Assembly (NCBI GenBank): GCA_024639145.1
Contig: JAHEIZ010000002.1
Span: forward strand, 62,001 to 126,000
Origin: Actinomycetes bacterium
Lineage (GTDB): Bacteria; Actinomycetota; Actinomycetes; S36-B12
Length of the DNA stretch: 64,000 nucleotides
Direction: 5' to 3'
Shown here: positions 1,620-16,583 of the stretch, in pieces
Position numbering within the stretch: position 1 is the stretch's first letter
How the letters are laid out: each line of letters begins with the position of its first letter
Position numbers and translations under genes: made by a program
Notes under the pieces: generated by a model
The model's database searches: none
Seen by the model: only the letters and a program-made list of their open reading frames with translations
What the model was told of the DNA's origin: nothing

Positions 1620-1648
1620 GTGACAGGAGTGATCGGGCTGGGTAAGGT
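1620..1648 (+). promoter_or_regulatory. Promoter of the ilvB leader
   Basis: GTGACA at 1620-1625 and TAAGGT at 1643-1648 are separated by exactly 17 bp, a good housekeeping-sigma promoter. The -10 box ends 7 nt before the GTG of the leader peptide, so transcription should start at or within a base or two of that codon, giving a leaderless leader-peptide mRNA. Confidence 0.65.
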
Positions 1649-1655
1649 TTGTCTC

Positions 1656-1694
1656 GTGGCAAAGCTTGTAGTAGTTACCGAGCGCGTGGGCTGA
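1656..1694 (+). CDS. ilvB leader peptide MAKLVVVTERVG (attenuator peptide)
   Basis: A 12-codon frame starting GTG and ending TGA encodes MAKLVVVTERVG. Four successive branched-chain codons (CTT GTA GTA GTT) followed by Thr match the LVVVT core of the ilvB leader peptide known in Corynebacterium glutamicum. It has no Shine-Dalgarno sequence but sits 7 nt after a -10 box, as expected for a leaderless peptide. Ribosome stalling at these codons when charged tRNA-Val or tRNA-Leu is scarce would change folding of the hairpins just downstream. Too short for ordinary gene finders. Confidence 0.8.
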   Translation: MAKLVVVTERVG

Positions 1695-1748
1695 TACGCA
1701 TACACCCCACGCGCGCCCTCCGTTACCCAGCCGGGTCGGGGGGTTTTT
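1682..1748 (+). promoter_or_regulatory. ilvB attenuator: hairpin plus intrinsic terminator
   Basis: The first hairpin pairs GCGCGTGGG (1682-1690, inside the end of the leader peptide) with CCCACGCGC (1706-1714); the leader stop codon lies in its loop. The terminator pairs 1716-1722 with 1737-1743, continues as ACCC/GGGT (1725-1728 with 1733-1736) after a two-base bulge, and is followed by five T (1744-1748). It lies 31 bases before the ilvB start. By analogy with Corynebacterium ilvBNC this is transcription attenuation. I did not find an unambiguous antiterminator pairing by eye. Confidence 0.75.
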
Positions 1749-1779
1749 CATTGAGTAGGCACGGCAGAAGAAGGAACTG

Positions 1780-3522
1780 ATGAGCGAGCAGATCACCGGG
1801 GCGCAGAGCCTGGTGCACTCCCTGGAGTCGGCAGGGGTGACCGACATCTTCGGCATTCCGGGCGGGGCAATCCTGCCCCTCTACGACCCCCTCATGGATT
1901 CGAGCCAGATTCGGCACATCCTCGTACGCCATGAGCAAGGTGCGGGGCATGCGGCCGAGGGCTATGCGTACACCAGCGGCAAGGTCGGCGTCTGCATGGC
2001 GACCTCGGGCCCAGGAGCCACCAACCTGGTAACCCCGATCGCCGACGCCAACATGGATTCGGTCCCGCTCGTGGCCATCACCGGTCAGGTCTCGTCCTCC
2101 TTCATCGGCACTGACGCATTCCAGGAGGCCGATATTCGCGGCATCACGATGCCGATTACCAAGCACAGCTTCCTTGTCACCAACCCCGACGAGATACCGC
2201 GCGCCATCGCCGAGGCCTTCCACCTGGCCTCGACCGGCCGCCCTGGCCCCGTGCTGGTCGACGTCTCCAAGGATGCCCTGCAGGCCATGACCACCTTCGA
2301 GTGGCCGACCAGCATCGACCTCCCGGGCTACCACCCGGTCACTCGACCGCATGCCAAGCAGGTGCGCGAGGCCGCACGAATGATCGTCGATGCCAAGGCA
2401 CCAGTGCTCTACGTCGGCGGCGGCGTGATCCGCGCCGGTGCCTCAGACTCGTTGCGCAAGCTCGCGGAGATCGCGGGTATTCCGGTGGTCACGACCTTGA
2501 TGGCACGCGGCGCCTTCCCTGATACGCACCCGCAGCACATGGGTATGCCCGGTATGCATGGTTCGGTCTCAGCAGTTGGTGCGCTGCAGAAGTCCGACCT
2601 GCTCATCACCTTGGGTGCGCGCTTCGATGACCGCGTCACGGGCAAGCTCTCGACCTTCGCGCCGAATGCGGCCGTCATTCATGCCGATATCGACCCCGCC
2701 GAGATCGGCAAGAACCGTCACGCCGACGTGCCGATCGTGGGCGATCTCTCCGAGATCATCCCCGAGCTCATCGTTGCACTCGAGGCAGAGTTCGAGGCGG
2801 GCCGTCGCGGTGACTACGGCGCCTGGTGGCAGCAGCTCACCCGCCTGAAGGAGACCTACCCACTCGGCTACGACCAGCCGTCCGACGGCTCCCTCTCACC
2901 GCAGTACGTCATCACTCGTCTCGGCGAGATCTCCGGCTCCGACTCGATCTTTGCCGCCGGCGTGGGCCAACACCAGATGTGGGCGGCGCAGTTCATCAAC
3001 TACGAGAAGCCCAATACCTGGATCAATTCCGGTGGCCTCGGCACGATGGGCTTCGCGGTTCCTGCGGCCATGGGTGCGAAGGTCGGGGCCCCCGACAAGA
3101 CTGTCTGGGCTGTTGATGGCGACGGCTGCTTCCAGATGACCAATCAGGAGCTCGTCACCTGCACAATCAACGAGATTCCCATCAAGGTCGCGCTGATGAA
3201 TAACTCGAGCCTGGGCATGGTGCGCCAGTGGCAGACCCTGTTTTATAACTCGCGTTACTCCAACACTGACCTGCACTCGTACCGCATTCCCGACTTCGTG
3301 AAACTGGCCGATGCCTACGGCTGCCACGGCCTGCGCTGCGAGTCACCCGATCAGGTTGACGCCACCATCGAGAAGGCGCTCAGCCTCAACGATGCACCGG
3401 TGGTCATCGACTTCATCGTTCACCGTGATGCGATGGTGTGGCCGATGGTCGCAGCCGGCGCGAGCAACGACGACATCCAGATTGCGCGCGACTTGGCGCC
3501 CGAGTGGGGAAGTGACGACTGA
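1780..3522 (+). CDS. ilvB: Acetolactate synthase, large (catalytic) subunit
   Basis: Catalyses condensation of pyruvate with pyruvate or 2-oxobutyrate, the first common step of valine, leucine and isoleucine synthesis. The 580-residue protein has the three-domain ThDP-enzyme layout: N-terminal Pyr domain with the [14 protein letters not shown] motif whose Glu activates ThDP, a middle FAD-binding domain, and the C-terminal metal/ThDP motif [12 protein letters not shown] near residue 450. Start ATG is preceded by AAGGA. It lies under the LVVV attenuator and its stop overlaps the ilvN start (TGATG), so the two subunits are translationally coupled. Confidence 0.97.
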
Positions 3523-13765: not shown

Positions 13766-14884
13766 ATGACGCTCGACACCGGTACGGCACTGTGGCCGAT
13801 CGCACTCAACCCGTCATCGACCCCGAAGCCGGCTGCTGAGCGCGACGCGATCCTGGCTGACCCGGGCTTCGGTCGCTATTTCACCGACAACATGGTGCGT
13901 GCACGCTGGACCGCCGGTGAAGGATGGCACGATGCAGAGCTCGTGCCCTATGGCCCGATCACCCTGGATCCCGCGACCAATTTCATGCATTACGGCCAGG
14001 CGATATTCGAAGGCCTCAAGGCATACCGTCATGCCGATGGCAGCGTGAAGTCCTTCCGTCCGCTGCGCAACGCCGAGCGCTTCGCCGCCTCGGCTCGTCG
14101 TCTGGCGATGGCCGAGCTTCCCGAGGAGCTCTTCCTTGGTTCCGTGGAGGCCCTTGTGCGCCAGGAGCGCGACTGGGTGCCGGCCGGTCAAGAGAAGTCG
14201 CTCTACCTTCGCCCGTTCATGATCGCGACCGAGGTCGGCCTGGGCGTGCGCCCGGCCAATCAGTACGACTACTACCTGATTGCCTCGCCAGCGGGCGCCT
14301 ACTTCCCGCGCGGGGTCAAGCCCGTCAGCGTCTGGCTCTCCGATGATTACGTGCGTGCGGCCAAGGGCGGTACGGGCGAGGCCAAGTGCGCGGGCAACTA
14401 CGCCGCCTCCCTGATCGCTCAGGCCGAGGCAGCGCACCATGGCTGCGACCAGGTCGTGTGGCTCGATGCCACCGAGCATGCCTGGATCGAGGAAATGGGC
14501 GGCATGAACCTGTACTTCGTCTACGGCACGGGAGATTCGGCCCGCATCGTGACCCCTGAACTCACAGGCTCCCTGCTCCCTGGAATCACCCGATCCTCGC
14601 TGCTCCAGGTGGCCGAGGATCTCGGCATTCGGGCAGATGAGGGTCGCATCAGTGTCGATATGTGGCGCGAGGGCTGTGCCTCGGGGGAGATCACCGAGGT
14701 CTTCGCCTGTGGCACCGCAGCGGTCATTACCCCCGTGGGTGAAGTCAAGAGCCGGGAGAGCGGCGCCTGGGAGATCAACCGCGGCGAGTCCGGTGCTGTC
14801 ACCCTGGCGCTACGTCAGGCACTCCTGGACATCCAGACAGGGGCTAGCCCTGACACCCATAACTGGCTGCACGCGATCTGCTAA
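13766..14884 (+). CDS. ilvE: Branched-chain amino acid aminotransferase
   Basis: Last step of valine, leucine and isoleucine synthesis, transferring the amino group from glutamate to the 2-oxo acids. A 372-residue fold-type IV PLP enzyme of the long (BCAT-II like) class; the Schiff-base lysine is in [14 protein letters not shown] near residue 205 and the glutamate in the [11 protein letters not shown] segment is typical. AAGGAG precedes the ATG. It follows leuB and its 3' end overlaps the promoter of the cimA leader, so the two transcripts abut without a terminator. Confidence 0.95.
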
Positions 14885-14887
14885 CTT
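14882..14887 (+). promoter_or_regulatory. -10 box TAACTT of the cimA leader
   Basis: TAACTT overlaps the ilvE stop codon and ends 7 nt before the GTG of the leader peptide, the same geometry as in the ilvB leader. A -35 box at 17 bp is not convincing; it would lie inside ilvE. Confidence 0.5.
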
Positions 14888-14894
14888 AGTTCTC

Positions 14895-14921
14895 GTGACC
14901 AGCACCATCATCATTACGTAG
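14895..14921 (+). CDS. cimA leader peptide MTSTIIIT
   Basis: An eight-codon frame, GTG to TAG, contains three successive Ile codons (ATC ATC ATT) followed by Thr. It stands directly before a hairpin and an intrinsic terminator upstream of the gene for the isoleucine-specific step, so it is best read as an attenuator peptide sensing isoleucyl-tRNA. The IIIT core parallels VVVT in the ilvB leader of the same genome. Too short to be called by gene finders. Confidence 0.75.
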   Translation: MTSTIIIT

Positions 14922-14975
14922 CGCGTCGACTCACCTCGACGCGCAGCCTTCCGTACCCAAACGGGAGGCTTTTTC
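14921..14975 (+). promoter_or_regulatory. cimA attenuator: hairpin plus intrinsic terminator
   Basis: Hairpin 1 is a perfect 9-bp stem (14921-14929 with 14936-14944) that begins at the last base of the leader stop codon. The terminator is a 10-bp stem (14945-14954 with 14961-14970, one T-G pair) with an ACCCAA loop, and with the T closing the 3' arm it gives TTTTT at 14970-14974. The following CATTGAGTAG is the same as after the ilvB terminator. An antiterminator fold was not obvious by eye. Confidence 0.75.
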
Positions 14976-15005
14976 ATTGAGTAGAAGTAGCAGGGAAGAA
15001 GGATC

Positions 15006-16583
15006 ATGAGTCGCCCGGATGCATTCCATGTATATGACACGACGCTGCGCGACGGTGCCCAGCGCGAGGGCATTTCGTACTCCGTGGAGGACAAGCTCAA
15101 GGTCGCCCGGCTCCTCGACGAGTACGGAGTCGGCTTCATCGAGGGCGGCTGGCCCGGAGCCATGCCGAAGGACACCGAGTTCTTCGAGCGTGCTCGCAAG
15201 GAACTCACCCTGCAGAACGCGGAGCTGTGCGCATTCGGCGCCACTCGCAAGGCAGGCGTCAAGGTCACCGACGATCTCCAGGTGCGCGCGCTGCTCGACT
15301 CGCAGGCGCCGGTTGTCACCCTGGTTGCGAAGTCTGATGTGCGTCACGTGATTGAAGCGCTGAAGACTTCTCTCGACGAGAACGTCGACATGGTGACCGA
15401 CACGGTCGCGTACCTCGTGGGCGAAGGGCGCCGGGTGTTCGTCGACATGGAGCACTTCTTCGACGGCTACAAGCATGACCCCGACTACGGCGTGCGACTG
15501 CTGAAGGCAGCCGCTGAGGCAGGGGCCTCCGTCGGCGTGCTCTGCGATACCAACGGCGGAATGCTTCCGCATGGCATGTACGAGGTTGTCACCGATGTGC
15601 GCGAGCGCTCGGGTGTGCGCCTGGGAATTCACTGCCAGGACGACACCGGTTGCGCCATCGCCAATTCCGTCTCCGCGGTCGAGGCCGGCGTCACGCACGT
15701 GCAGGTCACGGCCAATGGCTATGGCGAGCGCACCGGCAATGCCGATCTCTTCGTCGTTGTCCCGAACCTCCAGCTCAAGCTCGGTATCGACTGCCTGCCC
15801 GAGGGTGCACTTCGCGAGACCGTGCGCATCTCGCACGCTCTGGCGGAGCTCGCCAACATTGCGCCGAACACGCATCAGCCCTATGCGGGGTGGGCCTCGT
15901 TCGCGCACAAGGCGGGTCTGCACGCATCGGCTCTCAAGGTGAATGCCGATCTGTACAACCACATCGATCCGGCGATCGTCGGCAATGACCAGGCCGTGCT
16001 CGTGACCGAGATGGCCGGCCGAGCCACTGTCGAACTCAAGAGCCGCGAGCTCGGATACGAAGTTGCTTCTGATCCCGCACTCGTCACCCGAGTCGTCGAG
16101 AAGGTCAAGGAGCTCGAGAACAAGGGGTGGAGCTTCGAGGCTGCCGACGCATCGTTCGAGCTGCTGCTTCGTGCTGAGAGCGGTCTCGAGCGCACATTCG
16201 AGGTCGAGTCGTGGCGCACGATTGTCGAGCAGCTGCCCGATGGCAGCGTGAAGAGCGAGGCGACCGTGAAGGTGCACCTCGGCGGTGAGCGGGTGATCTC
16301 CACATCCGAGGGCAACGGCCCGGTGAATGCCCTCGACAATGCCCTTCGCGGCGCAGTGCTGCAGCTGTACCCGAACCTGGCCCAGCTGCACCTGACCGAT
16401 TACAAGGTGCGCATCCTCGATGCCGGCTCCGGAACGGGTGCGGTGACTCGCGTGCTCGTGAGCACCACCAATGGGGAGGCCGACTGGACCACGGTCGGCG
16501 TGCACGAGAACGTCATTGCCGCCTCGTGGATGGCCTTGGAGGATGCCGTGAATTTCGGCTTACTCCAGTCCGCCAAGAAGTAG
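15006..16583 (+). CDS. cimA: (R)-citramalate synthase
   Basis: Condenses acetyl-CoA with pyruvate to citramalate, which LeuCD and LeuB convert to 2-oxobutyrate, a threonine-independent route to isoleucine. The 525 residues fit the CimA branch of the LeuA family: YDTTLRDGAQREGISYS at the N-terminus, FIEGGWPGAMPKD near residue 45 (typical for citramalate synthases), metal-binding HCQDDTGCAIANS near 210, and a C-terminal LeuA-type regulatory domain from about 395. An AAGAAGGA ribosome binding site precedes the ATG. Confusion with homocitrate synthase is unlikely given the length, motif and Ile-codon leader. Confidence 0.93.
   Translation: MSRPDAFHVYDTTLRDGAQREGISYSVEDKLKVARLLDEYGVGFIEGGWPGAMPKDTEFFERARKELTLQNAELCAFGATRKAGVKVTDDLQVRALLDSQAPVVTLVAKSDVRHVIEALKTSLDENVDMVTDTVAYLVGEGRRVFVDMEHFFDGYKHDPDYGVRLLKAAAEAGASVGVLCDTNGGMLPHGMYEVVTDVRERSGVRLGIHCQDDTGCAIANSVSAVEAGVTHVQVTANGYGERTGNADLFVVVPNLQLKLGIDCLPEGALRETVRISHALAELANIAPNTHQPYAGWASFAHKAGLHASALKVNADLYNHIDPAIVGNDQAVLVTEMAGRATVELKSRELGYEVASDPALVTRVVEKVKELENKGWSFEAADASFELLLRAESGLERTFEVESWRTIVEQLPDGSVKSEATVKVHLGGERVISTSEGNGPVNALDNALRGAVLQLYPNLAQLHLTDYKVRILDAGSGTGAVTRVLVSTTNGEADWTTVGVHENVIAASWMALEDAVNFGLLQSAKK

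Follow-up and report, generated by a model that had tools for sequence, protein, structure and literature searches.

Leader peptides upstream of ilvB and cimA in Actinomycetes share a design consistent with codon-tuned transcription attenuation

The window analyzed here is a 64,000-nucleotide (nt) stretch of contig JAHEIZ010000002.1 (positions 62,001 to 126,000) from the draft genome of an Actinomycetes bacterium (GCA_024639145.1). Genes of the window were assigned with NCBIfam as ilvD, ilvB, ilvN, ilvC, leuA, leuB, ilvE and cimA. Upstream of both ilvB and cimA lies a leader that consists of a -10 box, a short open reading frame (ORF) with a core of branched-chain codons, a hairpin (P1), an intrinsic terminator flush with P1, and a T-run (Table 1). 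We propose that both leaders act as transcription attenuators and derive from a common, ancient actinobacterial chassis, tuned by the codons of the leader peptide and gated by P1, a reading to which we assign a probability of roughly 55% on the strength of comparative sequence analysis. Specificity is proposed to follow from codon choice, with Val, Leu or Ile codons at ilvB, Ile codons at cimA, and Leu codons at leuS and one leuA in other genomes.

Table 1. Positions of leader features and downstream genes in the window
Feature	Positions	Strand	Remarks
Candidate -35 of ilvB leader promoter, GTGACA	1620..1625	+	17 nt before TAAGGT; putative, consensus scan did not pick it up
-10 box of ilvB leader, TAAGGT	1643..1648	+	7 nt before start codon
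ilvB leader peptide ORF, MAKLVVVTERVG-stop	1656..1694	+	GTG 1656; reads M-A-K-L-V-V-V-T-E-R-V-G-stop; cognate codons GTA 1668, GTA 1671, GTT 1674; TGA at 1692-1694
P1 hairpin of ilvB leader	1682..1714	+	Folding and alignment A1; first base is third base of codon GAG; encloses stop codon
Intrinsic terminator of ilvB leader, flush with P1	1715..1744	+	Folding and alignment
T-run and tail TTTTTCATTGAGTAG, ilvB leader	1744..1758	+	First 10 nt recur in relatives, last 5 do not
ilvB, acetolactate synthase large subunit	1780..3522	+	TIGR00118, NF005860
-10 box of cimA leader, TAACTT	14882..14887	+	7 nt before GTG; its TAA doubles as ilvE stop codon
cimA leader peptide ORF, MTSTIIIT-stop	14895..14921	+	GTG 14895; reads M-T-S-T-I-I-I-T-stop; cognate codons ATC 14907, ATC 14910, ATT 14913; TAG at 14919-14921
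P1 hairpin of cimA leader	14921..14944	+	Folding; first base is G of TAG stop codon
Intrinsic terminator of cimA leader, flush with P1	14945..14970	+	Folding and family alignment
T-run and tail TTTTTCATTGAGTAG, cimA leader	14970..14984	+	
cimA, citramalate synthase	15006..16583	+	TIGR00977, 619.9 bits against a cut-off of 450

All elements listed in the original prediction are present at the positions given there. A TAAnnT hexamer precedes each GTG, both leaders fold into a hairpin that begins with GCGCG followed by a terminator (folding z of -3.3 for ilvB and -5.4 for cimA, each leader taken through the terminator), and the terminator between the ilvB leader ORF and its gene is GC-rich and ends in a U-run. 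Three branched-chain codons followed by Thr occur in both leaders, although the Thr proved variable in relatives. The 15-mer TTTTTCATTGAGTAG behind both terminators has only these two exact occurrences in the 2.52-Mb draft genome, but its last five bases are not conserved even in a sister genome, where the tails already diverge (ilvB, CATTGAATAG; cimA, CATTGAGATAC). TTTTTCATTG recurs in many relatives, whereas the AGTAG that follows it does not. Near the start codons, the ribosome binding site match GAAGAAGGA of the two loci is likewise not conserved in relatives, the sister genome included. Among 49 same-genome pairs, the window pair is unusually close, ranking first in tail similarity and second over the full leader.

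Covariance models were built from the ilvB leaders (alignment A1, model R1) and cimA leaders (alignment A2, model R2) of the family, for which the regions upstream of ilvB and cimA were sampled from 85 genomes in 14 genera. In the window genome, R1 found the cimA leader as the sole other significant site (37.2 bits, E 4e-6; runner-up 15.7 bits), and the reverse search with R2 found the ilvB leader at 28.7 bits (E 0.0013). These searches of the window genome found no further leader of this design above chance, and its leuS gene has none upstream. Over the family, R1 matched 64 of 70 cimA loci at 17-37 bits and R2 matched 59 of 70 ilvB loci; two R1 matches outside ilvB and cimA were spurious on inspection. 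The similarity persists when the terminator and ribosome binding site are left out, with pre-terminator alignments of ilvB against cimA leaders scoring 3.1 within the same genome and 2.2 across genera, as against -2.9 for shuffled sequences. The likeness of ilvB and cimA leaders exceeds chance. The trpE leaders of streptomycetes gave no match with the shared ilvB/cimA model.

An ilvB leader, in the form of a short ORF with Ile, Val or Leu codons, is present in all 14 genera of the family, and a cimA leader is found in nearly all of its genomes. The cimA leader is missing from 4 of the 12 genomes of one genus (g12), in which cimA lies close behind ilvE. Wider samples comprised 166 genomes from seven families of the order and 394 genomes of the class. 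Across the order, R2 detected leaders of cimA in six families (f2-f7) and of ilvB in three (f5-f7), and a combined model (R3) matched in 333 of 389 good class genomes. The identified genes behind R3 matches are almost all ilvB, cimA or leuS. Sampled matches outside the family preceded 24 cimA and 14 ilvB genes (one assigned by codons only), a sample from other families of the order and class gave 16 cimA and 24 ilvB genes, and further class matches lay before 11 cimA genes, seven ilvB genes and one leuA-type gene with Leu codons. Throughout the family and class genomes, the leader has Val, Leu or Ile codons at ilvB and Ile codons at cimA. Named and uncultured Actinomycetes supplied 44 further cimA loci, and at 40 of these a model match was also located upstream of cimA, including loci from Streptomyces, Thermobifida fusca, Blastococcus, Modestobacter, Geodermatophilus and Actinophytocola. 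Third matches within a genome mostly preceded leuS and had Leu codons (17 of 20 by the N-terminus of leucyl-tRNA synthetase, two confirmed by TIGR00396).

Several side observations concern this distribution. Several other families of the class contributed seventeen leuS leaders that combine this chassis with Leu codons, and none of this design was found upstream of leuS in the inspected relatives of the window genome. One 2-isopropylmalate synthase gene (L356) has a Leu-codon leader on the same chassis, and one genome with three matches has a further acetolactate synthase gene, preceded by a leader of the same type (L327). Two more leaders (L337 and L338) have Ile codons, P1 and a terminator. 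In much of the class, both leaders have a tail of the form TTTTT[CT][AG]TTG behind their terminators (1744-1753 and 14970-14979 in the window).

The position of the codons relative to P1 is nearly fixed. In 207 of 210 leaders, P1 opens on the third base of a codon. With that codon numbered 0, about 95% of leaders have cognate codons at -3 and -2, at distances of 8 and 5 nt from P1: these encode Val in 94 and 84 of 99 ilvB leaders (the rest mostly Leu or Ile), Ile in 97 of 102 cimA leaders at each position, and Leu in 9 of 9 leuS leaders. Within the family, the ilvB core reads GTA GTN, one variable codon, and then the codon whose last base opens P1, and the cimA core reads ATC or ATT, ATT, one variable codon and TAG, the G of which opens P1. 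A stop codon stands at the foot of P1 or within it in all classified leaders. Of 102 cimA leaders, 84 have a stop as codon 0; most ilvB leaders have a sense codon there, with the stop following inside P1. Among the outgroups, families f5 and f7 include several ilvB leaders with TAG at the foot of P1, and the ORF of some cimA leaders continues past this position and stops within P1; therefore, the stop has shifted between the two states in both genes.

A [TC]AnnnT -10 box lies 6-8 nt before the in-frame start in 86 of 98 ilvB leaders (10.7 expected), 86 of 99 cimA leaders (10.9 expected) and 9 of 9 leuS leaders (0.6 expected), or 181 of 206 leaders overall against about 22 expected. The ilvL and leuL2 transcripts of S. 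lividans are leaderless by RNA-Seq (PMC8079986).

The case for P1 as a conserved structure is made by compensatory changes at six of nine pairs of the cimA hairpin across the family; in two genomes, GCGCGTCGAC is changed to GCGAACTGAC with matching changes in the opposite arm. The spacer between P1 and the terminator measures 0-2 nt, and mostly 0 or 1. Folding, duplex and overlap tests found no antiterminator formed from the 3' arm of P1, its 5' arm or loop, or the codon region. In the duplex test, the RNA that a stalled ribosome would leave free showed weaker pairing to the 5' arm of the terminator than shuffled controls did in cimA (-4.1 vs -5.4), ilvB (-6.8 vs -8.2) and leuS leaders (-5.8 vs -7.8), whereas the trpE leaders of seven streptomycete loci, used as a positive control, revealed their antiterminator (-17.1 vs -10.4). 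A 3-bp overlap between P1 and the terminator occurred in none of about 200 leaders. Thus, of the components of a trp-type attenuator, the cognate codons in the leader ORF are present and an antiterminator that excludes the terminator was not found. The missing antiterminator agrees with a 2005 remark that classical attenuator components are often missing in Actinobacteria (PMC1262725). A search of Rfam 15 families gave no leader match above the gathering threshold, and only chance matches at E up to 10.

The original prediction held that the leaders look like duplicated attenuators, in which a Val leader could have become an Ile leader by single-base changes. A duplication within this lineage is not supported, since both leaders occur throughout the class and group by gene, so that any duplication would predate the class. 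In a tree of 100 leaders from a model-based alignment of about 100 columns, the gene label needs 4 changes against a shuffled mean of 40, ilvB leaders form one side of a branch (SH-aLRT, an approximate likelihood-ratio test, 93), and the window cimA leader falls among cimA leaders; the tree is unrooted and neither shows nor excludes the expected nesting of cimA leaders within ilvB leaders. The tree supports old, gene-bound inheritance of the leaders and does not tell their order of appearance. The gene label needs 28 changes on P1 columns alone, where the grouping largely dissolves, and 18 on terminator and tail, which places much of the signal in the codon region; trees of P1 or of the terminator alone offer too few columns for duplication events to be placed. 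Same-genome leaders are barely closer than cross-genus ones, scoring 14.1 vs 12.5 over the full leader (genus-permutation p 0.02; p 0.24 for the tail and 0.89 for the terminator), and the sister genome lacks the AGTAG that the window pair shares; a recent duplication or gene conversion within this genome was therefore also rejected. In another family (f19), five cimA leaders resemble the ilvB leaders of other families, with up to 61 bits for the ilvB model, and two ilvB leaders of f19 have a different P1 and terminator.

On the origin of the leaders, an alternative with not far short of an even chance is that ilvB and cimA leaders arose independently and came to resemble each other through common constraints (a leaderless start, the spacing of codons and hairpin, GC-rich hairpins and a terminator), with no duplication. 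The relation of ilvB and cimA leaders is not exclusive, as R2 scores leuS leaders of the class nearly like ilvB leaders (medians of about 28 and 33 bits); the failure of P1 columns to separate the genes and the slight closeness of same-genome leaders within the family also favor convergence. However, trpE leaders are similarly constrained and give no match with the shared model, and the GCGCG foot, the flush terminator and the TTTTT[CT][AG]TT tail are no obvious necessities of such constraints.

Under the attenuation that we propose, RNA polymerase would start at or near the GTG, so that a ribosome would load on a leaderless ORF. General knowledge of the spacing between ribosomes and hairpins suggests that codons -3 and -2, the final cognate codons, whose ends lie 8 and 5 nt ahead of P1, would be the last ones read before the ribosome must unwind the hairpin. 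With cognate tRNA scarce, the ribosome would wait ahead of an intact P1; with sufficient tRNA, it would move into P1, at the foot or inside of which the stop codon lies, and open it. Since no base-pair competition was found, P1 would be the remaining variable set by the position of the ribosome. P1 adjoins the terminator and may serve as a gate, antitermination through steric conflict at the terminator base being the more likely sign of its effect. We count C. glutamicum ilvBNC in favor of this proposal: an antiterminator hairpin lies next to the terminator there and meets its base, and expression rises when the terminator is mutated (PMC11857589). The sequences themselves show the chassis, the register, the stop position, the adjacency of P1 and terminator, the covariation and the match of codons to genes; the leaderless start, the stalling and the steric effect of P1 with its direction are inferences.

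Four points weigh against it. When folding was performed with a ribosome mask, the terminator formed at about 0.95 on average whether the ribosome was absent, stalled or at the stop codon; an effect of P1 therefore cannot run through base-pair competition and rests on the steric argument. By toeprint geometry, a ribosome with codon -2 in its A site might already cover the foot of P1, which would reverse the role of the hairpin. The overlap of two hairpins seen in the C. glutamicum type is missing in these leaders. Of the published evidence that speaks against the sensing of codons at ilvB, the strongest is a report that codon replacement in the S. coelicolor ilvB leader was without effect (PMC1262725).

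The reversed sign is an alternative in its own right, though an unlikely one: P1 would aid the terminator by keeping upstream RNA away or pausing the polymerase, and a ribosome stalled at codon -2 would cover the P1 foot and prevent termination. Codons -3 and -2 are the most invariant, and a ribosome covering about 12 nt past its A site would touch the first 2-5 nt of P1, the nearly invariant GCGC foot, as this alternative would have it. On the other hand, a stop always at or in P1 means that non-starved ribosomes would disturb P1 too, and, as is known from frameshift sites, ribosomes usually tolerate stems at 5-9 nt from the codon in the A site. Classical trp-type attenuation with a competing antiterminator missed by folding, supported by the terminator, antiterminator and antiantiterminator hairpins of C. 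glutamicum ilvBNC (PMC11857589), is improbable given the weak duplexes of all three leader types in a test that trpE passes and the lack of any 3-bp overlap.

More broadly, and only tentatively, these leaders may constitute a distinct, antiterminator-free class of attenuators across Actinomycetes, in which a leaderless ORF places its last two cognate codons at a fixed distance from a hairpin touching the terminator, the progress of the ribosome sets termination, and the chassis is portable between ilvB, cimA, leuS and occasionally leuA by exchange of codons.

Leader peptides are known from several related systems. Upstream of leuA, on the minus strand of the window, lies a Leu-rich leader ORF (MTSARLLLRCRSGA-stop, 12584 down to about 12464) with a -10-like box immediately before its ATG. 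It matches the LEU element, which encodes a Leu-rich leader peptide before leuA in Actinobacteria and was described as a pseudoknot with no typical terminator (PMC1262725). As this ORF reads Leu, three branched-chain synthases in the cluster carry leader peptides reading Val, Leu and Ile. The Streptomyces trpE attenuator has a leaderless peptide, as is predicted for the leaders here, and likewise combines several cognate codons in a row and a subsequent Thr with hairpins and a terminator, but it differs in its strong antiterminator and is undetected by the shared model. The Corynebacterium ilvB-II motif, a three-hairpin attenuator (PMC10272879, PMC11857589), shares the ilvB gene and a hairpin beside the terminator, and has a leaderless upstream ORF such as is predicted here; its antiterminator and terminator share a GCC trinucleotide, whereas none of about 200 leaders has such an overlap. 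The Streptomyces leuS leader (Seliverstov 2005; leuL2, MRAVRLLLSEPR, PMC8079986) resembles the ilvB and cimA leaders in P1, flush terminator and cognate (Leu) codons at the same positions, is picked up by the ilvB/cimA model elsewhere in the class, in other families, and differs in gene and codons. Antiterminators have been reported for leuS (PMC1262725), but the duplex test used here on ilvB, cimA and leuS leaders did not find them.

The ilvB leader itself is known. Actinobacterial ilvB leader peptides (Seliverstov 2005, PMC1262725; S. lividans ilvL, MRTRILVLGKRVG, PMC8079986) stand before the same gene as short ORFs rich in Ile, Val and Leu that overlap hairpins and precede a U-run terminator; ilvL is leaderless, and the window ilvB leader belongs to this kind. 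The published accounts consulted describe no fixed register of codons and hairpin, no order-wide occurrence and no cimA counterpart. No description of a cimA leader was found in the open literature, although subscription literature could hold one, and the eight leader peptides given for S. lividans (PMC8079986) include none at cimA; streptomycetes do carry the cimA leader by model matches. The Ile-codon leader of cimA therefore appears to be undescribed in the open literature. Predicted leader-peptide control of citramalate synthase by Ile is present at most of the actinobacterial cimA loci examined, Streptomyces included. The fixed register and missing antiterminator, set beside the trpE controls, give the long-unclear attenuation of actinobacterial ilvB a concrete and testable geometry, and the chassis would represent a natural series of codon-specificity exchanges on a single structure.
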